From assembly GCF_000235425.2 (NCBI RefSeq), contig NZ_KI912267.1:260207-324206 (forward strand): 64,000 nt of DNA, in the 5' to 3' direction. The stretch is from Pseudofrankia saprophytica (GTDB lineage: Bacteria > Actinomycetota > Actinomycetes > Frankiales > Frankiaceae). The notes under the pieces were generated by a model. It searched no databases. It was given only the letters and a program-made list of their open reading frames with translations, and was not told where the DNA came from. Within the stretch, counting starts at the first letter, position 1. Each line of letters begins with the position of its first letter. A program made the translations under genes and the position numbers. Positions 300 through 11,086 of the stretch are shown piece after piece.

Positions 300-1256
300 T
301 TAGGCGAAGACGATTGTCGTGTTGCTGTGGACGATGACGCGGTCCTGGAGGTGCCAGCCGACGGCGCGCGCCAGCACCGCCCGTTCGACGTGCCGGCCGA
401 TCCGGCGCAGGTCGACGACCTGGTGGCGATGGTCGACCCGTTCGATGTCCTGCTCGATGATCGGCCCGGCGTCGAGATCGACGGTCACGTAGTGCGCCGT
501 CGCGCCGATCAGCTTCACTCCTCGCCGGGCGGCCGCGCTGTACGGGTCCGCGCCGACGAACGCAGGCAGGAAGCTGTGGTGGATGTTGATGATCCGGTCG
601 GGGAACGCCGCGACGAACCGTGGCGTGAGGACCTGCATGTAGCGGGCCAGCACCACGAGGTCGACCTGGCCCGCCAGTAGCGCCAGCGCCCGCCGTTCCG
701 CCTCGTCCCGGGTCTCCGGCGACACGGGGACGTGGTGGTACGGAATTCCCCAGCCCGCCGCGGTGTCGCGCAGGTCAGGATGGTTGGAGACCACCATCCG
801 CACGTCCATCTCCAGCTCGCCGGAGTGGGTCCGCCACAGCAGCTCCTGCAGCGCGTGATCTGCCTTTGACACGAAGATCGCCACCCGTTGCCGCACCGCC
901 GGCGTGGCCACCCGCCACCGCATCTCGGCGCCCGTCGCCAGCTGGGCCAACCCTTCCTCGATCGCCGGCAGCCCGGCCGCGAGATCCTCGCGGTGGAACT
1001 CGATCCGCAGGAAGAAGGTGCCGCCGAACGGGTCGGTGGAGTACTGCTGCAGCTCGGTGATGTTCGCGCCGTGCCGGAAGAGCAGGCTCGAGATGGCCGA
1101 GACGATGCCCGGCCGGTCGGGGCAGGTGACCAGCACCCGCCCGACGTCCCGGTACCGCTCGGCGTGCGCGGCCACCGCCGCCGGCGTCACCAGCGGCCCG
1201 CCACCGCCCGGCGCGCCCGCCCCACCGCCGCCACCAACCTCCGCCCGTTCGGTCAC
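300..1256 (-). CDS. purU: Formyltetrahydrofolate deformylase
   Basis: Hydrolyses 10-formyl-THF to formate and THF, balancing the one-carbon pool and supplying formate for PurT-type purine synthesis; cytosolic. An N-terminal ACT domain (LVTCPDRPGIVSAISSLL, about residues 25-95) precedes a formyltransferase fold. The catalytic Asn-His-Asp set sits in NIHHSFLPAF and the later VDLDAGPIIEQD segment. From the GTG at 1256 the protein is 318 aa, slightly above the usual 280-300 because of a Gly/Pro-rich N-terminal tail; an upstream start at 1403 would add only low-complexity residues. The C-terminus is intact although an IS110-type element lies about 60-230 bp downstream. Confidence 0.93.
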   Translation of the reverse strand: MTERAEVGGGGGAGAPGGGGPLVTPAAVAAHAERYRDVGRVLVTCPDRPGIVSAISSLLFRHGANITELQQYSTDPFGGTFFLRIEFHREDLAAGLPAIEEGLAQLATGAEMRWRVATPAVRQRVAIFVSKADHALQELLWRTHSGELEMDVRMVVSNHPDLRDTAAGWGIPYHHVPVSPETRDEAERRALALLAGQVDLVVLARYMQVLTPRFVAAFPDRIINIHHSFLPAFVGADPYSAAARRGVKLIGATAHYVTVDLDAGPIIEQDIERVDHRHQVVDLRRIGRHVERAVLARAVGWHLQDRVIVHSNTTIVFA

Positions 1257-1460
1257 GGCCTCATCGTCGCCCGTCCCGCCGCCGCGGCCGGGGTTCCCAC
1301 GCCGCCAGTGCCCAGGACGGCCGACAAGTGCTGACGTTCCGCCGCGCCCCGGGCCGGGTGGGCCATGGCGCCAGGGCCGTGGTCCCCCGTTTGCCGCCGT
1401 CATCGCGGGTTAGGTGGTCAGGAGACGGAACGTCAACGGGGCCGAACCGGGAGGACACGC

Positions 1461-1973
1461 ATGACCACAGGCGGCGAAGTGGGCCGGGGCGAAACGGGGC
1501 GGGACGAAGTGAGCCGGATCGTCGTCGGCATCGACGGCTCGGAGGGATCGCGCGAAGCCCTGCGCTGGGCGATGCGCGAGTCCGAGCTGCACGGCGCCGA
1601 ACTGCTCGTGCTGCTGGCCTGGCAGCTGCCGGCCGTCGGGCCCTACCTGCCGGCCATGCCGCTGGACGCGGGCGTCTGGGAGGAGAGCGCCCGCCAGGGG
1701 CTCAGCGAGGCGCTGGCCGCGGTGTTCGGGGACAAGGTGCCCGACGGGGTGCGCGCCGAGGTGCGTCCCGGCCCGCCGGCGTCGGTGCTCGTCGAGGCCG
1801 GCCGGGACGCGGACCTGGTGGTCGTTGGCTCGCGTGGGCACGGCGGATTCGTCGGCGCGCTGCTCGGTTCCGTGAGCACGGCGGTCGTCCATCATACGAC
1901 CTGCCCGGTTCTCGTCGTACGGCCGCCATCCGAGCACGACGCGGACACGAAGCACGCGGACACCAAGCACTGA
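1461..1973 (+). CDS. Universal stress protein (UspA family)
   Basis: A 170-aa single-domain Usp. The opening RIVVGIDGSEGSREALRWA is the first beta strand and P-loop-like turn. The C-terminal GSRGHGGFVGALLGSVS matches the ATP-binding Gly-2X-Gly-9X-Gly-Ser pattern, so it should be an ATP-binding type. The ATG at 1461 follows a GGGAGGA ribosome site at about 1450 and is preferred over the in-frame start at 1365. The last residues form a small hydrophilic DTKHADTKH duplication. It stands alone, divergent from purU, with about 200 bp between them for two promoters. Confidence 0.9.
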   Translation: MTTGGEVGRGETGRDEVSRIVVGIDGSEGSREALRWAMRESELHGAELLVLLAWQLPAVGPYLPAMPLDAGVWEESARQGLSEALAAVFGDKVPDGVRAEVRPGPPASVLVEAGRDADLVVVGSRGHGGFVGALLGSVSTAVVHHTTCPVLVVRPPSEHDADTKHADTKH

Positions 1974-2196
1974 GCCGCCCGGAGCCCGGTGCGCCGAGCG
2001 ACCCGGCACCGAGGCAGGCGCACCGAGCGGAAACCGGGCACGGAGACCGGCGACGACCGGACGAGACCCGGGGGTGGCGGCCCCGCCCGACGCGCGCCAC
2101 AACCGGAGTGGGCATTCCGCGTGCGCCGGAACCGCCGCCGCCCGGACCGCCCGGCTGTTAACGTGACCGTCGTCACAGCCATGCCAGGGGGTCGCC

Positions 2197-3807
2197 GTGA
2201 ATCCCGCTTCGCACGCCGCCGTCGCACCGGACAAGCCCGCGGTCATCATGGCCGGCTCGGGAGTGACGCTGACCTACCGCGAGCTGGACGAGCGCTCGGC
2301 CCGGTTCGCGAACGTCCTGGCCGCCGCGGGGCTGCGGCGCGGGGACGGCATCGCGCTACTGGCGGAGAACGACCAGCACTGTTTCGAGGTCTACTGGGCG
2401 GCCCTGCGCAGCGGGCTCTACGTGACTCCCGTCAACTGGCACCTCTCCCCCGCCGAGGTCGCCTACATCGTCGACGACTGCGAGGCCGCGGCGCTGATCG
2501 TCTCCTCGCGCCAGCGCGAGCTCGCGGCCCGGATCGTGGAAGCGACCCCCCGGGTCCGGCACCGGTATGTCTTCGCCTCGGCGGATGAGCCCGCCGCCGC
2601 CGACCAGCCGGGCAGCCAGCCTGCCGGCAACGTGGATGATTGGCTCGCCGCCCACGAAAGCTACGAGCGGGCGGTCGCCGGCGCGCCGGCCGAGCGGCCC
2701 GAGGTCGAGTGGGCCGGCGCCGACATGCTCTATTCCTCCGGCACCACCGGCCGACCGAAGGGCATCCGCCCACCGCTTCCCCAGTACCGCAGCGGCGAGC
2801 CCGGGATGATCCTGCCGCCGATGCTGCAGATGCAGTACGGGATGGGCCCGGACGCGGTCTACCTATCGCCCGCGCCGGCCTACCACGCCGCCCCGCTGCG
2901 GTTCGGCGGCGCGGTGCAGGCCCTCGGCGGCACGGTCGTGATGATGGAGCGCTTCGAGCCGGTGGCCGCGCTCGCGGCGCTGGAGAAGTACCGGGTGACG
3001 CACAGCCAGTGGGTGCCGACGATGTTCGTCCGCATGCTGAAGCTGCCCACGGCGGAGCGCGAACGTTTCGACCTGTCGGCCCACCGGGCCGCGATCCACG
3101 CCGCCGCGCCGTGCCCGCCCGACGTGAAGCGGGCGATGATCGACTGGTGGGGGCCGATCCTGTACGAGTACTACGCCGCCACCGAGGCGTCGGGCATCAC
3201 GTTCGTCTCGTCCGAGGAGTGGCTCCAGCGGCCGGGGACGGTCGGCCGGTCCGCGCTCGGCGTCGTCCACATCTGCGCCGAGGACGGCCGGGAGCTGCCG
3301 ACCGGCGAGGACGGCGTCGTCTACTTCGAGCGGGAGGCCCTGCCGTTCACCTACCACGGCGACCCGGCCGCGACCGCCGCCGCCCAGCACCCGGCGCACC
3401 CGACCTGGACGACGGTCGGCGACGTCGGCCACCTCGACGCGGACGGCTACCTCTACCTGACCGACCGGGCGACGTTCATGATCATATCCGGCGGGGTGAA
3501 CATCTACCCGCAGGAGATCGAGAACGTGCTCGCGCTGCACCCGAAGATCCTCGACGTCGCGGTCATCGGCGTCCCCGACCCGGACCTGGGCGAGCGGGTG
3601 CACGCCGTCGTCGAGCCGGCGCCCGGCGTCGAGCCGGGCCCGGGCCTGGCCGACGAGCTGATCGCCTACGTCCGGGACCGGATCGCCCACTACAAGGCGC
3701 CGCGTGGCGTCGACTTCGTCGACGAGCTGCCGCGGACGCCGACCGGCAAGCTTCGCAAGAACCTGCTCCGTAAACGCTACTGGCCCGCAACCGCGGCCAC
3801 CGGTTGA
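2197..3807 (+). CDS. AMP-forming acyl-CoA synthetase (FadD-like)
   Basis: Activates a carboxylic acid to the acyl-AMP and then acyl-CoA. All core ANL motifs are visible: P-loop YSSGTTGRPKGI (about residues 178-190), YEYYAATE (A5), GDVGHLDADGYLYLTDR (A7) and the C-terminal lysine in PTGKLRKNLLRKRY (A10). At 536 aa it has the usual length. The GTG start follows an AGGGGG site 5 bp upstream. The substrate cannot be read from the sequence; a medium/long-chain or aromatic acid is likely given the hydrophobic acyl-pocket region. It is transcribed towards the Hsp70 gene 79 bp downstream. Confidence 0.9.
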   Translation: MNPASHAAVAPDKPAVIMAGSGVTLTYRELDERSARFANVLAAAGLRRGDGIALLAENDQHCFEVYWAALRSGLYVTPVNWHLSPAEVAYIVDDCEAAALIVSSRQRELAARIVEATPRVRHRYVFASADEPAAADQPGSQPAGNVDDWLAAHESYERAVAGAPAERPEVEWAGADMLYSSGTTGRPKGIRPPLPQYRSGEPGMILPPMLQMQYGMGPDAVYLSPAPAYHAAPLRFGGAVQALGGTVVMMERFEPVAALAALEKYRVTHSQWVPTMFVRMLKLPTAERERFDLSAHRAAIHAAAPCPPDVKRAMIDWWGPILYEYYAATEASGITFVSSEEWLQRPGTVGRSALGVVHICAEDGRELPTGEDGVVYFEREALPFTYHGDPAATAAAQHPAHPTWTTVGDVGHLDADGYLYLTDRATFMIISGGVNIYPQEIENVLALHPKILDVAVIGVPDPDLGERVHAVVEPAPGVEPGPGLADELIAYVRDRIAHYKAPRGVDFVDELPRTPTGKLRKNLLRKRYWPATAATG

Positions 3808-3886
3808 GTCAACCATGTGCCCGTGAGTTGTCGATCGACTACGGTTGTGCCGTCCGCACCGGAGATCGGCGACGGGGTGATGGTGA

Positions 3887-5845
3887 ATGACGTCGGATGG
3901 ACAGGCCCAGCAGGCCCGCAAGACCGTGGCCGAGCCGGCGGTGGGCATCGACTTCGGTACCACCAACTCGGCCGTCGGCATCTTCGAGCGCGGCCGGGTC
4001 CGGCTCGTGCCGAACGCCGAGGGAACGCTGACCACGCCCAGCGTCGTCGCGTTCGTCGCCGACGGGCCGCCGCTGGTCGGGGCCACCGCCCTGCGCCAGG
4101 CGGTCACCAATCCCGCGCACACGATCCGGTCCGTCAAGCTCCGGCTGGGCAGCGACTGGTCACACGAGCACGACGGCACCCGGTACTCGGCCGAGGAGGT
4201 CGCCGCGCTCGTGCTGAAGCGGCTGCACGCGGATGTGCGGGAATACGCCGGCAGCAGCATCGGCACCGCCGTCCTGACCGTTCCCGCCTACTTCAGCCAC
4301 GTGCAGCGGCGGGCGCTGGAGGACGCCGCGCGGATGGCCGACATCGAGGTCGCGAGGATCGTCAGCGAGCCGACCGCCACCGCCATCGCGCACGGCCTGC
4401 ACCGCGCGCAGGAGGAGCGGAGCCTCGTCTTCGACCTCGGCGGCGGCACGTTCGACGTCTCGCTCGTCGAGATCGGCGCCGGCGTCTGCGAGGTGAAGGC
4501 GACCGCCGGGGACAACCACCTCGGCGGCGACAACTGGGACCAGGCGATCGTCGAGCACTTCGTCGCACTGCTGCGCGAGCAGCACGGGCTGGACATCAGC
4601 CAGGACCTGACGGCACTCGCCCGGCTGCGGGAGGCGGCGGAGACCGCGCGGGTCGACCTGTCCGCGGCGACCTCCGCGAATGTCTATCTTCCGCACCTCG
4701 CCCGCACCGGCGACGGCTACGCGCACGTGGACGTATCCCTGACCCGGGGCGAGCTCGAGACCATCACCCAGTCCACCCTGGAACGCTGCCGCGGGCCGTT
4801 CGAGCGGGTGCTGCGCGACGGCGCATTACGGGCCAGCGAGATCGACCACGTGATCCTGGTGGGGGGCGCGGCCCGGATGCCGGCCGTGGGCGGGCTCGTC
4901 GAGAAGCTCGCGGGCAAGCCGCCGTTCCGCACCATCTCCGAAGGGGTCGTGACGGGCGCCGCCCTCCAGGCGGCGGGCCTCACCGGCCAGGTCAAGGACC
5001 TCCGCCTGCGCGACGTCATCCCGGCGTCGGTGGGCGTCGAACAGGTCGGCGGGCTGTACCTCCCCGTGATCCAGCGCAACACGACCGTGCCGACGCGGCG
5101 CCATCAGCTGCTCACGACCGCCGTCGACAACCAGTCCTCGGTCACCGTGCTGGTGGTGGAGTCCGAGGAGGACCGGGCCGGCCGGGACGACGCGATCGCC
5201 CTCGCCAGGCTGGACATCACCGGGCTGGCCCCGGCACCGGCGTTCGCGCACCGGATCGACGTCGCCTTCGACGTCGACGCCGGTGGCACGCTGCGGGTGA
5301 CCGCCACCGACCTCGGGACCGGGCGCGTCGAGTCCCGCGTCATCGACCGGGCCAGCGCCCGCGCGGCGGCCCGGCCGCGACGCCTCCACGCCATCGACGG
5401 CGGCCCCGCCATCGAGAACCTGCCCATCGTGACGACGACCGTCGCCTACCCACTCGGCATCGAGATCGCCGGAGGCAGGTTCCGCGAGGTCATCACGGCC
5501 CGCAAGTCCGTACCGGTCCGCGAGACGGTCCTCGTCACGAACGCCGCGGACGACCAGGACGCCATCACCGTGCACATCGTGGAGGACGGCGGCTACTTCG
5601 TGCCCGGGGGTACCTTCCGGCGCGTCCGGCAGTTCGAGCTGACGGGCCTCGCGGCGACCGCGGCGCGCACGGCCCGCGTCGAGATCGTCCTGGCCGTCGA
5701 CCGGCGCCGCCAGCTCACCATCCACGCCCGCGACCTGGCCGGCGGCAGCGAGCACACCGAGCGCGTCGATCTCGCGACGACGTTCCAGGAGCCGATCACC
5801 CTCGGCCCGACCGGCTCGGCCGGCAACCTGCCCCTCGTCTTCTGA
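3887..5845 (+). CDS. Hsp70-family protein with two tandem SBD-beta-like domains and no lid
   Basis: Residues 1 to about 380 form an Hsp70 ATPase domain: VGIDFGTTNSAVGIF (phosphate 1), VFDLGGGTFDVSLVEI (phosphate 2) and ILVGGAARMPAVGG (adenosine). A linker-like LRLRDVIPASVGVE leads into a first SBD-beta (about 385-495, ending in GTLRVTATD). Instead of the alpha-helical lid there is a short basic linker and a second SBD-beta-like unit beginning VAYPLGIEIAGGRFREVI and ending RRQLTIHARD (about 515-640). Total length is 652 aa. No GrpE, DnaJ or ClpB partner is nearby. It is not the canonical DnaK; the name stays at family level. Start ATG 3887. Confidence 0.88.
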   Translation: MTSDGQAQQARKTVAEPAVGIDFGTTNSAVGIFERGRVRLVPNAEGTLTTPSVVAFVADGPPLVGATALRQAVTNPAHTIRSVKLRLGSDWSHEHDGTRYSAEEVAALVLKRLHADVREYAGSSIGTAVLTVPAYFSHVQRRALEDAARMADIEVARIVSEPTATAIAHGLHRAQEERSLVFDLGGGTFDVSLVEIGAGVCEVKATAGDNHLGGDNWDQAIVEHFVALLREQHGLDISQDLTALARLREAAETARVDLSAATSANVYLPHLARTGDGYAHVDVSLTRGELETITQSTLERCRGPFERVLRDGALRASEIDHVILVGGAARMPAVGGLVEKLAGKPPFRTISEGVVTGAALQAAGLTGQVKDLRLRDVIPASVGVEQVGGLYLPVIQRNTTVPTRRHQLLTTAVDNQSSVTVLVVESEEDRAGRDDAIALARLDITGLAPAPAFAHRIDVAFDVDAGGTLRVTATDLGTGRVESRVIDRASARAAARPRRLHAIDGGPAIENLPIVTTTVAYPLGIEIAGGRFREVITARKSVPVRETVLVTNAADDQDAITVHIVEDGGYFVPGGTFRRVRQFELTGLAATAARTARVEIVLAVDRRRQLTIHARDLAGGSEHTERVDLATTFQEPITLGPTGSAGNLPLVF

Positions 5846-5857
5846 CGCGGGCGTCCT

Positions 5858-6706
5858 CTAACGCGGGGCTACGAGCAGGGCCTGGGCACCGACGCCGACC
5901 GGGCCGTCGAGGTCGGACAGCACGGTGGTGGCCAGGCCGGCGCCGCCGGGACTGATCGTCGTCGTCGCGTCGACGCAGATCCACTCGCCGACCGGCTCGC
6001 GGTGCAGGTGCACGGTGAGCTCCGGATTGATGAAGTACGTCGTGAGGAAATCCGTCTCGCTGGAGATCCCGTTGCCGTTGTCGGCGAGCGCCAGCACCCG
6101 CTGCAGCGGGCTGGTCTCCTCGCCGGCGACCAGCGGGTGACACAGCCGTCCCCACAGCGCGGCCGGCCCGGGCACGCTCATCCGGCCCCGGCCGGCCGAG
6201 CGCCATTCGATCGCGCTCGCGAACCCACGCAGGCGTCCCGGCCCGGGCACGCGCGGCGGCGGCGCCTCCGGCAGCGGCGGGGGCGGCGGGTGGCGCGGCG
6301 GCACACCCGTGCCATCGGCGCGCCTGACCCGCCAGGCGGTGGCGCGGGCGACGTCCCGGCCGCCGGCGGTGAGCACCGCCTCGACCAGCTCGACGCTGCG
6401 CCCCGGCCGGGCGACCTGGGAGCGCAGGCTCAGCTCGCCGACGGGAACCGGCCCGAGCAGCTCGGTGGTGAACCGCGCGATCATCATGTCCGGGCGCGGC
6501 GCGGTCCGCTCGACGGCCCGGACGAGCAGCGCGCTCGGCGGCCCGCCGTGCTGGGCTGCCGGGTCCCACGGCCCTGCCGTGTGCTCGGTCGCGAGCCAGC
6601 GCCCGTCACCCAGGTCCACATACAGGCTCGCGGCCGGTGCCATGGGCGGCGGACCACCCGGCGCCAGGGAGGGCTCGCTCGTCGTCGACACGCCACCGTC
6701 AGACAC
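5858..6706 (-). CDS. Acyl-CoA thioesterase-like double-hotdog protein
   Basis: The 282-aa protein has two hotdog halves joined by a Pro-rich linker (about residues 125-150). The first half carries GPWDPAAQHGGPPSALLVRAVE, where the HGG segment is the helix-start region of this thioesterase family. The second half contains SSETDFLTTYFINPELTVHLHREP and a DATTTISPGGAGLATTVLSDLDGPVG ending typical of TesB-like/4HBT_3 proteins. It probably hydrolyses acyl-CoA thioesters. It ends 12 bp from the convergent Hsp70 gene. A GC hairpin at 6728-6750 lies between it and the upstream PPOX gene. Confidence 0.82.
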   Translation of the reverse strand: MSDGGVSTTSEPSLAPGGPPPMAPAASLYVDLGDGRWLATEHTAGPWDPAAQHGGPPSALLVRAVERTAPRPDMMIARFTTELLGPVPVGELSLRSQVARPGRSVELVEAVLTAGGRDVARATAWRVRRADGTGVPPRHPPPPPLPEAPPPRVPGPGRLRGFASAIEWRSAGRGRMSVPGPAALWGRLCHPLVAGEETSPLQRVLALADNGNGISSETDFLTTYFINPELTVHLHREPVGEWICVDATTTISPGGAGLATTVLSDLDGPVGVGAQALLVAPR

Positions 6707-6727
6707 GGCCCGACCTTAGGCCGCTTC

Positions 6728-6750
6728 CACCCGACCCGTCCGGTCGGGTG
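6728..6750. terminator. Short hairpin between PPOX-family and thioesterase genes
   Basis: CACCCGACC and GGTCGGGTG form a perfect 9-bp stem around a 5-nt loop. It sits 39 bp past the PPOX-family stop and 22 bp before the thioesterase start, both on the minus strand. No T-run follows, so it could be an attenuating hairpin or an operator instead of a classical terminator. Confidence 0.45.
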
Positions 6751-6788
6751 ATCCGCATCACAGCCGAGTGGCCAACCACGCGCGGGCC

Positions 6789-7409
6789 CTACCGGTCGGG
6801 CGCACCAGCGGCCGTCGCGACCACGGCGGAGGCGGGCAGCGGCGGCAACGGCAGCGGGAGGGCCGGGAGGCCGTCGATGCTCTGGCCGTTGAAGTCCTTC
6901 GCCGCGCAGTAGGCGGCGAACTCCTCGTCGGTCTTGCGGCCGAAGTACTCGCCATGCAGCGCACGGTCCCCGACCGGCTCCATCAGCGGCACCTTGTACC
7001 CGCAGCTGTCGCTGACCTGCTCGGCCGTCACCACGACGACGGCGCGCACCGACGGCTGGTCCGGCCGCGGGAAGCGGGCGAGCAGCGCGCCGAACCGCGG
7101 GTCGTCGCGGAACACCACGTCTCCGCGCCCGTGCACCCGCACGATCTTCGGCGGTCCCCAGAACGCGCACCACATGAGCGTGATCCGCCCGTTCTCCCGC
7201 AGGTGCGCGATCGTCTCGGCGTGGCTGCCGCCCAGGTCCAGATAGGCCACGGTGTGCTCGTCAAACACCGCGAACGTGTCCGCGCCGCCTTTCGGGGACA
7301 GGTTCACGTGCCCTTCCCCGGACAGCGGCGCCGTGGCCACGAAGAACACCGGCTGCGCCTCGACGAAGTCCCGCAGCCGCCCGTCGATCCGCTCGTAGAC
7401 CTTTCCCAT
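6789..7409 (-). CDS. Pyridoxamine 5'-phosphate oxidase-family protein
   Basis: This 206-aa split-barrel flavin/F420-binding protein opens MGKVYERIDGRLRDFVEAQPVFFVATA and continues HVNLSPKGGADTFAV, the phosphate/flavin-contact strand typical of PPOX-like proteins. NGRITLMWCAFWGPPKIVRVHGRG is the conserved central strand. It lacks the full PdxH signature, so a role in vitamin B6 synthesis is unlikely; a flavin- or heme-binding reductase is more probable. Divergent from the DUF1232 gene; the 196-bp gap contains GACAG-N2-CTGTC near 7471, a possible operator. Confidence 0.85.
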   Translation of the reverse strand: MGKVYERIDGRLRDFVEAQPVFFVATAPLSGEGHVNLSPKGGADTFAVFDEHTVAYLDLGGSHAETIAHLRENGRITLMWCAFWGPPKIVRVHGRGDVVFRDDPRFGALLARFPRPDQPSVRAVVVVTAEQVSDSCGYKVPLMEPVGDRALHGEYFGRKTDEEFAAYCAAKDFNGQSIDGLPALPLPLPPLPASAVVATAAGAPDR

Positions 7410-7605
7410 GCTCCGATCCTCGCTCCGCCGCGCGGCGCCGTCGCCCCGATTTTCGTAACCGCCGACACCTTTGACAGAGCTGTCGTCGTCGTGACGTTCA
7501 TCGGGGGGCGATGTTGGGCATGGTCAGTTCGCACGGTCGATCGACCTGGCGCCGACGCGGCGCCGGGGCACGGCCGGGACAGCTCTCGGAAGGGGCGCAG
7601 GCGGC

Positions 7606-8001: not shown

Positions 8002-10260
8002 TCAGGGGCGGGGCGGGCGGGAGCGCGGCCGGGCGAGGCTCGCCAGGTAGCGGTTGTAGGCCTCGAACTCGTCGTCCTCGCCGCTGTCCATCCGGGCGTC
8101 CTTCGCGCGGCCGTGGCGTTCCTCGGTCCGCGCCCACTGGAAGAACAGGGCGGCGAGCACGGCCAGCGACGGCAGCTCCCCGAAACTCCACGCCATGCCG
8201 CCGCCGACCTGCTGGACGTCGAGCAGCGAGCCGCCCCACGGCCGGTCGAGCAGCCGGTAGTACGACTCGCCGATCACCTCGTTCGACACCATCAGGATCA
8301 CGCCGAAGAAGGTGTGCACCGCCGAGGCGAGGAACAGCAGCATGATCCGCGCCGGGTAGGGCGGCCGGCGCGGGCCCGGGTCGACGCCGATGAGCAGCCA
8401 GAAGAACAGGTATCCGACGACGAGGAAGTGGCACATCATCGCCAGGTGCGCGAGATGGTTGCGCAGCACCCAGCCGTACAGCGGCGTCAGGTACAGCGCG
8501 TACAGCGACACCGAGTACAGGACGAACGTGACCACCGGGTGGGAGACGAACGCCAGCCAGCGGCTGTTCACGACCCGCAGCAGCCAGGCCCTGGCGCTGC
8601 GGGTGGTGCCGGTGACCCCGGTCGGCAGCGTGCGCAGCGCGAGCGTCACCGGCGCGCCGAGCACCAGCAGCACCGGAGCCAGCATCATCAGCAACAGGTG
8701 CTGGGCCATGTGGACGCTGAACAGCACCCGGCCATAGGGGCCGAGCCCGCTGCTGGTCGCGAACGCGATGACGGCGAGTCCCAGCAGCCAGCTGACGGTG
8801 CGCCCGACCGGCCAGGACGCGCCCGCACGGCGCAGCCGGACAACCCCGGTCAGGTACAGCCAGGCGCCGAGCAGGACCACCGTGAGGAACAGCAGGTCGG
8901 GCCGGGCCTCGGTGACGATCCGGCCGGCGGCGAACGGCGGTGGCAGCGGGTAGCCGAGCAGCGAGACCACCGGATCATCGGCGGCACCGCCGTCGGCGGA
9001 CGCCGGCGTCGGGGTGCGCGACAGGCCGGCGCCGAGCGCGACGGCCACACCCATCAGGGCGACCTCGGCGGCCCCGAGCCGCAGGAACGGCCGGCGCCGC
9101 GAGGGCGACGCGGTGAGGCGACGGATCGTGAACCGCCGGTGCGCCGCGCCGAGACCGGCGAGCGCGACGAGGGCGACCACCTTCGCGATCACCAGGTTGC
9201 CGTAGCGGCTGTCGACCAGCGCGCTCCAGCTGCCCACCCGGACGTAGGCGTTGACGACCCCGCTAAGGGCAACGACGACGAGGCACAGCCCCGCGAGCCC
9301 GCTGTAGCGGGTGACGGCGGTGACCAGCTCGCGTCCGGCGAGCCGGCGGCCACCGGCGAGCAGCGCCGCGAGCCCGCCCACCCAGGCCGCGACCCCGAGG
9401 ACGTGCAGCCCACTGCTGACCGTCGCGAGATCATGGCCGCCCGAGCCGTGGGCGTGCCCGGTCATCGCGACCGGCAGCAGTGCGCCGAGCGCCAGCACGG
9501 CGAGCCATGCCGCCGTGTCCAGCTTGCGGGCCACCCCGGCCGCGACGGCGATCGCGAACGTGAGCCCGGCGACGATCAGCAGCGCCCGTGGCTGCGGCAC
9601 CGCGTCGAGGACGTTGCCGACGTTGTGACGGCTCAGCGCGGCCGGCAGGGGACGCCCGATGAGGTCCGAGACGGTGAACGCGAACTGGGCGAGCGAGGCG
9701 ACGCACCACACCCAGGCGGCGACGGACGCCCAGCGCAGCAGCCGCGTTCCCGCGACGCCCGGCTTGCCGCCGGCGGCCGGGAACAGGAACGCGGCCGCGA
9801 GCAGCGCCCCGACCGTGGCGACGCCGGCCGTGTCGCACAGCAGCCGGCTGATCGGCAGCCCCCAGCCGGTGAACAGCCCGGGGTCGGCCCCGGCGAGCTC
9901 GGCCGGGAGCCGCTTCGGCGCGCCGCCGCCGGCCTCGAGCACCACGACGAGCGTCACGAGCATCGCGACGGCGCCCGCCACCACACCGGCGACCACCGGC
10001 CACCGGCCCGAGCCGCCCTCGGCACCGTCCTCGGCTTCGGCACCGCCGTCGTCCTCGCCGACCGTCCCGGGCGGCGTGTCCGCGGTCATGGGCGTGCCAG
10101 CGGGCGAAACGGCGGGGACGACGGGTAGCTCGGCCGTCCCGGCCGTGGTGGCGCCCGGCGGACCGGCGTCCGGCGGACCGGCATCCACCGCGGCGGCGTC
10201 TGCCGGGCCAGCGTCGGCCAGGTCTGTGCCGGCGACGGCCGGCGCTCCCTCAGGTCCCAT
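8002..10260 (-). CDS. CopD copper-resistance / CtaG cytochrome oxidase assembly fusion
   Basis: A 752-aa polytopic membrane protein. The first about 85 residues are acidic, Ala/Pro-rich and probably disordered. A CopD-type integral membrane domain follows (about 90-430), with GHAHGSGGHDLATVSSGLHVLGVAAWVGGLAAL as its conserved His-rich helix. The C-terminal half (about 470-720) is a caa3-type CtaG domain with HMAQHLLLMMLAPVLLVLGAP and HLAHLAMMCHFLVVGYLFFW. This fusion is common in actinobacteria and is thought to import copper and deliver it to heme-copper oxidase. Its start overlaps the CopC stop by 11 bp, indicating translational coupling. Confidence 0.92.
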   Translation of the reverse strand: MGPEGAPAVAGTDLADAGPADAAAVDAGPPDAGPPGATTAGTAELPVVPAVSPAGTPMTADTPPGTVGEDDGGAEAEDGAEGGSGRWPVVAGVVAGAVAMLVTLVVVLEAGGGAPKRLPAELAGADPGLFTGWGLPISRLLCDTAGVATVGALLAAAFLFPAAGGKPGVAGTRLLRWASVAAWVWCVASLAQFAFTVSDLIGRPLPAALSRHNVGNVLDAVPQPRALLIVAGLTFAIAVAAGVARKLDTAAWLAVLALGALLPVAMTGHAHGSGGHDLATVSSGLHVLGVAAWVGGLAALLAGGRRLAGRELVTAVTRYSGLAGLCLVVVALSGVVNAYVRVGSWSALVDSRYGNLVIAKVVALVALAGLGAAHRRFTIRRLTASPSRRRPFLRLGAAEVALMGVAVALGAGLSRTPTPASADGGAADDPVVSLLGYPLPPPFAAGRIVTEARPDLLFLTVVLLGAWLYLTGVVRLRRAGASWPVGRTVSWLLGLAVIAFATSSGLGPYGRVLFSVHMAQHLLLMMLAPVLLVLGAPVTLALRTLPTGVTGTTRSARAWLLRVVNSRWLAFVSHPVVTFVLYSVSLYALYLTPLYGWVLRNHLAHLAMMCHFLVVGYLFFWLLIGVDPGPRRPPYPARIMLLFLASAVHTFFGVILMVSNEVIGESYYRLLDRPWGGSLLDVQQVGGGMAWSFGELPSLAVLAALFFQWARTEERHGRAKDARMDSGEDDEFEAYNRYLASLARPRSRPPRP

Positions 10261-10954
10261 CGGAACTCCCCTGCCTGCGCCGGACCAACACCGCGAGGAC
10301 GGCGCCGCCGACGGCGGCCAGCACGCCGGCGCCGACCGCGACCCCGACGATCAGGCCGGTGGACCATCCGTCGTCCGTATCCGTGTCCACCCACGAGATG
10401 ATCACGCCGGTCGGTTCACTGACCACCACCGGCGTCGCGGTCGGTAGGGAGGCCGGGCCGGCGGCGGCGCTCGCGGTGGAGGACGGCGACGCGGGCTGTC
10501 CCGTCGCGGCCGTCGCGGTGAAGGAGATCTCGCCGTTGACCGGGTGCCCGTCAGCGGAGACCACCCGGTAGGCGAGCCGGTAGGTTCCCGCGGGCCGGTC
10601 GGCCACCAGCGGCTGGGTGACGATCGCGCCGTCGAGGACCGGTTCGCCGGCGGCGACGCTGGCGCCGTCAGGACCCTGGACCGCGACCGCGCCGAGGCCC
10701 AGCAGGTGCTGGGCGAACACCAGCTCGACGTGGTCCGGCGCGGTCGGCACGGTGGCGCCATTGGCGGGAGTGCTCGACTTCAGCTGCGTGTGCGCGCTCG
10801 CGGGCGCCGCGCCAGCGAGGACCGCGAGCGTCACCAGCCCGCCGACCAGCGCGGCGGCGAGGACGCCCGCGCCGGGAGCCGGCCGCCACCGGGGTGGTCT
10901 CCCGCTAGGGGCACCGGCGAGACCTGCCCGCCGTCCGGCAACCACTGCGCGCAT
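10250..10954 (-). CDS. copC: CopC-domain periplasmic copper-binding protein, membrane anchored
   Basis: From ATG 10954 the protein is 234 aa: a basic N-terminus, a signal segment ending ASA, the CopC beta-barrel, a Ser/Ala/Pro-rich spacer and one C-terminal TM helix with a basic tail. The predicted mature protein begins HTQLKSSTP, so His1 can ligate Cu(II), with the Asp and His of VVSADGHPVNGEISF as likely partners. An in-frame start at 11035 exists but adds no domain. It is coupled to the downstream CopD-CtaG gene by an 11-bp overlap, so copper would be caught outside and passed to the membrane protein. Confidence 0.9.
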   Translation of the reverse strand: MRAVVAGRRAGLAGAPSGRPPRWRPAPGAGVLAAALVGGLVTLAVLAGAAPASAHTQLKSSTPANGATVPTAPDHVELVFAQHLLGLGAVAVQGPDGASVAAGEPVLDGAIVTQPLVADRPAGTYRLAYRVVSADGHPVNGEISFTATAATGQPASPSSTASAAAGPASLPTATPVVVSEPTGVIISWVDTDTDDGWSTGLIVGVAVGAGVLAAVGGAVLAVLVRRRQGSSDGT

Positions 10955-11086
10955 CGGCGACTCCAGCCCCTGCCCCGCCGGGCGCGGCGACGGTCGACCC
11001 GGCTCCAGGACCGTGCCGCCAACGTTCACACCCACGCTCGCTTCTACGTCACGTCGAAGATACCTGGCCCACCGTCGGTCCTCCGG

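Follow-up and report, generated by a model that had tools for sequence, protein, structure and literature searches.

A lidless Hsp70 with two SBD-beta units in Pseudofrankia saprophytica and its relatives

The window that we analyzed is a stretch of 64,000 nucleotides from Pseudofrankia saprophytica (contig NZ_KI912267.1). Near its start lies a gene for an Hsp70 in which the SBD-beta occurs twice in tandem (Table 1). A gene for a universal stress protein adjoins the Hsp70 gene in all seven loci of the genus and lies upstream on the same strand in six of them; in Frankia nepalensis it is a different universal stress protein, with two Usp stretches and in divergent orientation. The gene for the AMP-binding enzyme stands between the two in three of the seven loci and is absent from the others. 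Hence, it was either inserted into a conserved pair or lost from it. The more distant relative G024, another genome of the Frankiaceae, has an ORF for a Ser/Thr kinase of 638 aa (L077:6221-8137), 15 nt downstream of its tandem Hsp70 gene and on the same strand. Beyond the kinase domain this ORF is without a Pfam match; our impression from the letters, and it is only an impression, is of a propeller or lectin repeat.

Table 1. Features of the tandem Hsp70 gene and its neighbours (positions are those of the window; aa, residues of the 652-aa protein).
Feature	Position	Strand	Basis
Universal stress protein (PF00582), conserved neighbour upstream	1365..1973	+	Pfam, genus loci
AMP-binding enzyme (PF00501), probably acyl-CoA ligase	2197..3807	+	Pfam, genus loci
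Tandem-SBD-beta Hsp70 gene, 652 aa	3887..5845	+	ATG start; start conserved in four orthologues
Hsp70 nucleotide-binding domain (NBD), aa 18-368	3938..4990	+	Residue comparison with E. coli DnaK; model
Interdomain linker KDLRLRD, aa 370-376	4994..5014	+	Equivalent of DnaK VLLLD is LRLRD
SBD-beta unit 1, aa 377-488	5015..5350	+	HMM, 99 bits; strands in model
Short helix, aa 488-495	5348..5371	+	Sole helix after unit 1 in model
First LP motif ENLPIV, aa 510-515, inter-unit linker	5414..5431	+	LP in 8/8 proteins
SBD-beta unit 2, aa 521-628	5447..5770	+	HMM; PDB phmmer; model strands (pLDDT 51-75)
Second LP motif NLPLVF, C-terminal, aa 647-652	5825..5842	+	LP in 8/8 proteins
CopD/CtaG and CopC genes, copper-resistance-like	8002-11035	-	Named by reading the sequence, without a family search; downstream of Hsp70 in 6/7 genus loci

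A search of the window for HAIR-like and CIRCE-like consensus sites, allowing up to three mismatches, found none, and matching to consensus gave neither a sigma-70-type promoter nor a terminator at positions 1200-7500. Five J-domain matches occur in the genome, two of them within about 1 kb of two full DnaK matches, and none on the contig of the window.

An earlier note, made from the letters of this DNA, had proposed that the gene encodes an Hsp70 with a duplicated SBD-beta-like domain. Our results bear this out. The Pfam model PF00012 (HSP70) matches the ORF twice, once over model positions 1-501 and again over 392-500 (E 1.9e-7), the repeated positions being the SBD-beta; the whole protein scores 516.7 bits, and the best stretch ends at position 501 of 599. 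An HMM built from 46 canonical actinobacterial DnaK SBD-betas finds a domain at aa 374-491 (99 bits, iE 7.3e-32) and a second one at aa 521-624 (33 bits, iE 2e-11). Searched on its own against solved structures with phmmer, unit 2 matches the SBDs of DnaK and Hsc70, from E 1.2e-8. Unit 2 of G024 gives the same kind of matches (4.1e-19) and, at 72 bits with our HMM, is still near a normal SBD-beta. Aligning the two halves, as the note had suggested, gave a score of 130 over 109 columns, while 500 shuffles of unit 2 against unit 1 reached 32 ± 6 and at most 57. The motifs on which the note had based its proposal were located as well: ASVGVE (380-385) and GTLRVTATD (467-475) in the first unit, YPLGIE (521-526) and QLTIHARD (609-616) in the second.

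That canonical DnaK has a single SBD-beta, as the note had assumed, agrees with our control: all 73 DnaK ORFs from viral contigs (80 loci, seven of which were without an ORF passing the motif filter) had one SBD-beta match each. The genome of P. saprophytica contains two full DnaKs, the tandem protein and eight more ORFs (386-915 aa) that partly match PF00012. Two other ORFs of this genome also have two PF00012 stretches (1-372 and 406-515; 1-373 and 403-499); we rejected them as tandem repeats, since the stretches are the NBD part and a single SBD part.

In the usual view, the lid is central to the way in which Hsp70 traps clients under ATP control. The note had claimed that the helical lid is missing here and that the second unit is SBD-beta-like. 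To model the protein with AlphaFold we used an alignment of 37 rows, 32 DnaKs trimmed before the lid and five tandem proteins, so that unit 2 was covered by tandem proteins only; we checked before modelling that zero DnaK letters were aligned to unit 2. The model has a mean pLDDT of 79 and a pTM of 0.72 (an earlier one, from five close orthologues only, was poor, with a pLDDT of 46). Eight strands are predicted in unit 1 (381-385, 391-395, 403-410, 418-426, 437-445, 455-463, 469-475, and 481-485) and the same eight, running parallel in order, in unit 2 (523-527, 531-536, 544-551, 559-566, 576-586, 596-604, 609-616, and 622-628). Together with the sequence homology this predicted topology supports an SBD-beta fold for the second unit, at moderate confidence (pLDDT 51-75 by tens). 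We looked for a lid in the C-terminal part and the model contains no helix after residue 495; the short helix at 488-495 is the only one after unit 1, hence there is no lid in the computed structure. As far as computation reaches, the structural claim has withstood both of the refuting conditions that the note had set. The units are joined by some 25 residues that the model predicts with low confidence, and both tails have a pLDDT of about 30, so that the model is silent on where the tails sit. Over about residues 15-492, that is, the NBD and unit 1, the model matches DnaK structures (Foldseek TMq 0.70; VIA-align best match 7krt, Z 45.9, 1.8 Å over 472 residues). We are nearly certain of the architecture: NBD, linker, SBD-beta with an LP tail, a second SBD-beta with an LP tail, and no lid.

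The protein belongs to the Hsp70 superfamily, since its NBD contains the phosphate loops and the catalytic residues, and an SBD-beta follows the interdomain linker. The equivalents of E. coli DnaK K70, P143, R151, E171, D194, T199, D201, and D393 are retained in all eight tandem proteins. From the catalytic residues among them one would expect the window protein to hydrolyze ATP. Other positions have changed: N170 is S in seven of the eight proteins, including that of the window, R167 is L in two, and the linker VLLLD has become LRLRD or LRLHD in the seven genus proteins (G024 retains VLLLD). As a consequence, coupling to ATP or to J-proteins may be altered. Identity to the DnaKs of the family is 48-49% over about aa 11-491 in most of the matches listed, and the best solved match by sequence is M. 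tuberculosis DnaK. Nevertheless, the protein is not a dnaK orthologue: it falls below the NCBIfam equivalog cut-offs (NF001413, 553.5 of 648 bits; TIGR02350, 548.2 of 822.55), it lacks the helical lid, it has two SBD-betas where exactly one is expected, and the genus linker is not VLLLD. Within the DnaK lineage, it is a paralogous Hsp70 that has lost the helical lid and doubled its SBD-beta.

A survey of the architecture in the Frankiaceae, also suggested by the note, recovered the full-length protein in seven of eight genomes of the genus, our own included (81-100% identity); it was not found in the eighth, G034, which is 93% complete and in 850 contigs. Among the matches listed from the other 27 Frankiaceae genomes, one, in G024, is a relative with 56% identity and both units. 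An 82-aa query taken from the G024 protein matched 20 genomes, none of them outside this family, and added nothing further. In 393 genomes of the class (at most six candidates scored per genome), none of the matches listed beyond G024 covers unit 2; all of them stop at or before residue 134 of the 285-residue query. In 149 genomes of the phylum (at most 16 candidates per genome), only our own genome spans the query among the matches listed, and the others end by 128 of 280. An Agrococcus locus that initially matched query residues 18-624 was rejected, as it encodes an ordinary DnaK with a lid.

Phyla beyond Actinomycetota were reached by a scan for exact peptides, a plasmid search and the viral-contig search. 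The exact-peptide scan, over 84,980 species, gave eight loci, of which four are tandem (Pseudofrankia sp. BMG5.36, Frankia nepalensis CN7, Frankia sp. AgB1.9, and P. asymbiotica). On plasmids the tandem was not seen among the best 60 of 174 matching records: these covered 336-432 bp, one SBD each, when a tandem needs about 800 bp, and three of the seven records covering 80% of the query fall outside those 60. In the open-access literature we found no description of an Hsp70 with two SBD-betas, and nothing on Pseudofrankia together with the universal stress protein.

In a tree of the NBD and unit 1, rooted at the midpoint and built from six of the eight tandem proteins and 25 rows of our own choosing, a branch with support 100/100 sets the six apart, with G024 beside the genus proteins; five of the tandem rows have an unusual letter make-up. 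In a tree of the SBDs long branches meet, and the origin of unit 2 is not indicated. Both SBD-beta units are under purifying selection. In eight pairs from seven genus sequences dN/dS was 0.02-0.21 for the NBD, 0.05-0.19 for unit 1 and 0.01-0.43 for unit 2, which exceeds unit 1 in seven of the pairs. The linker between the units is looser than the domains (0.08-0.66), and the tail is loosely constrained overall (0.20-0.55, with a single value of 3.09 from very few sites).

What do the two units do? The note had suggested two client sites on one ATPase, and its interpretation as a whole is supported in part. At the five classical pocket positions, presumably 401, 426, 436, 438, and 472 of DnaK, the window protein and G024 have hydrophobic residues in both units, five out of five in each; unit 2 has IVIVV in the window protein and IFIVV in G024, compared to IFVII in E. 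coli. On the other hand, conservation at ten pocket positions does not significantly exceed that in the remainder of the domain (p 0.08-0.67, eight comparisons), which leaves the two client sites unproven. Going by the residues two such sites are plausible, and the chances that unit 2 itself binds peptide appear to us evenly balanced.

Another feature of the protein is its tails. About 20-25 residues past each SBD-beta there is a Leu-Pro, at both sites in all eight tandem proteins. The window protein has ENLPIV and GNLPLVF, and G024 has RNLPRPAP and ENLPTPVE; in some genus members D or G replaces the N before LP. In an alignment of the C-terminal half of four genus proteins and G024, which are 36-40% identical over that region, nothing but L and P is invariant in the outer part of both tails (between columns 121 and 146, and beyond 255). 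When the two tails of the window protein and the two of G024 were shuffled 100,000 times, a tripeptide common to all four never arose (the real tails share NLP), LP was found in all four 390 times and some shared dipeptide 2,309 times, numbers that should be read in light of a short motif spotted post hoc. LP also occurs inside SBD-betas, as in the GLPPAPRG loop of DnaKs, and unit 2 of G024 holds two extra LPs, one of them an NLP in a loop of that type. Descent from a duplicated unit together with orthology may explain why the tails share LP, but not why LP survived while its flanks changed. The motif could also serve folding rather than binding to a groove. According to a review, a YLPRP motif of an antimicrobial peptide binds DnaK at the nucleotide-binding domain (PMC11678341); as the target there is the NBD, we treat the likeness to NLPRP in G024 simply as a lead.

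From these observations we tentatively suggest, and hold it to be somewhat short of probable, that the protein acts as an ATP-driven holdase, bivalent and of low affinity, with pseudo-substrates built into the chain as caps for its grooves. As the lid is missing, each groove would bind hydrophobic segments weakly and fast, and two grooves per chain would restore grip through avidity when a client exposes two such segments. The LP tails would occupy the grooves as pseudo-substrates, in cis, between units, or between protomers, where they would stabilize the lidless sandwich and compete clients off, much as the LP-motif of Zuo1 does for lidless Ssz1. The state of the ATPase would act chiefly on unit 1, which adjoins the linker. 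The net result would be a stress-linked holdase or a hand-over factor supplying canonical DnaK with clients. The capping itself is possible rather than probable in our analysis, and with slightly more reserve we consider a self-capping Hsp70, in which LP peptides replace the lid, affinity is restored by two grooves on one chain and tails might be swapped between units or molecules to give oligomers that clients release.

One could also argue that unit 2 took over the role of the lid, as a beta-sandwich cap over the groove of unit 1 that binds no clients. Unit 2 does occupy the place of the missing lid, and it is further from DnaK than unit 1 (33 vs 99 bits). But its groove floor stays hydrophobic in both lineages, low-confidence residues separate it from unit 1, and in G024 it has remained close to a normal SBD-beta, so that we think this reading unlikely. 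The same holds, to a similar degree, for a scaffold in which unit 2 is a fixed docking module without a client site, for example for the universal stress protein or the G024 kinase. The constant presence of the former gene, the closeness of the latter ORF, and a pocket identity that is not above background would all fit. However, the two lineages have different neighbours; synteny within one genus is inherited and thus weak evidence, and an SBD-beta that docks would probably still employ its peptide groove.

Less probable again is that the tails act in trans, each filling the groove of the next molecule to form ATP-sensitive oligomers that store inactive chaperone. BiP sets a precedent, since its oligomers form through a linker in the neighbour's groove, also without the lid (PMC4608358), and here each chain has two grooves and two tails; a cis arrangement would be sterically simpler. 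That the gene is a decaying duplicate of dnaK, a partial tandem duplication with lid loss and without selected function, was already disfavoured and strikes us as very improbable. The lost linker leucines of the genus and the one genome in eight where the gene was not found could be signs of decay, but in all eight pairs the dN/dS of the NBD and of both units lies well below 1, the frame is open and the catalytic residues are kept in all eight proteins, and the six tandem proteins in the tree form one clade. A bivalent holdase with capped grooves remains the reading that we prefer. Whatever its precise role, a natural and selected Hsp70 with two SBD-betas, catalytic residues, and no lid offers a ready means to probe the purpose of the lid and to ask whether avidity can substitute for it.

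How does the window protein compare to known systems? With DnaK it shares the catalytic NBD residues, the position of the linker and SBD-beta unit 1; it differs in the absence of the SBD-alpha lid, the extra SBD-beta, the LP tails, the charged linker (in the genus), and its separate clade. A lid is also naturally absent from a 496-aa DnaK-like ORF on a plasmid of Streptomyces sp. NBC_00868 (L172:1930-3420), which stops directly after SBD-beta and lies near genes for an adenylation-domain protein and a phosphopantetheinyl transferase. That ORF has a single SBD-beta, and its E171 region reads SGPAAAG instead of NEPTAAA; hence it is a naturally lidless Hsp70 whose ATPase is probably damaged. In BiP, the chaperone uses its own hydrophobic segment, the interdomain linker, as a groove substrate and so forms oligomers, even when lidless (PMC4608358). 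This resembles what we propose for the LP tails, but BiP possesses a lid and a single SBD, and its ligand is the linker that joins NBD and SBD.

A further parallel is the Ssz1/Zuo1 pair of the yeast RAC. Ssz1 is described as lidless, with an SBD that accepts the LP-motif of Zuo1 as a pseudo-substrate filling the groove, and the same paper states that DnaK without its lid binds and releases substrate more rapidly, exchanging it 10-100 times faster (PMC7083937). A lidless Hsp70 SBD-beta and a Leu-Pro motif are common to both systems, here at the level of sequence. Ssz1, however, does not hydrolyze ATP and receives its motif from a J-protein, whereas the window protein has two SBD-betas, carries the motifs in its own chain, where they would bind the grooves, and keeps the catalytic residues. 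If the LP tails do cap the grooves, then the solution found by Ssz1 and Zuo1 has evolved again, within one bacterial chain.
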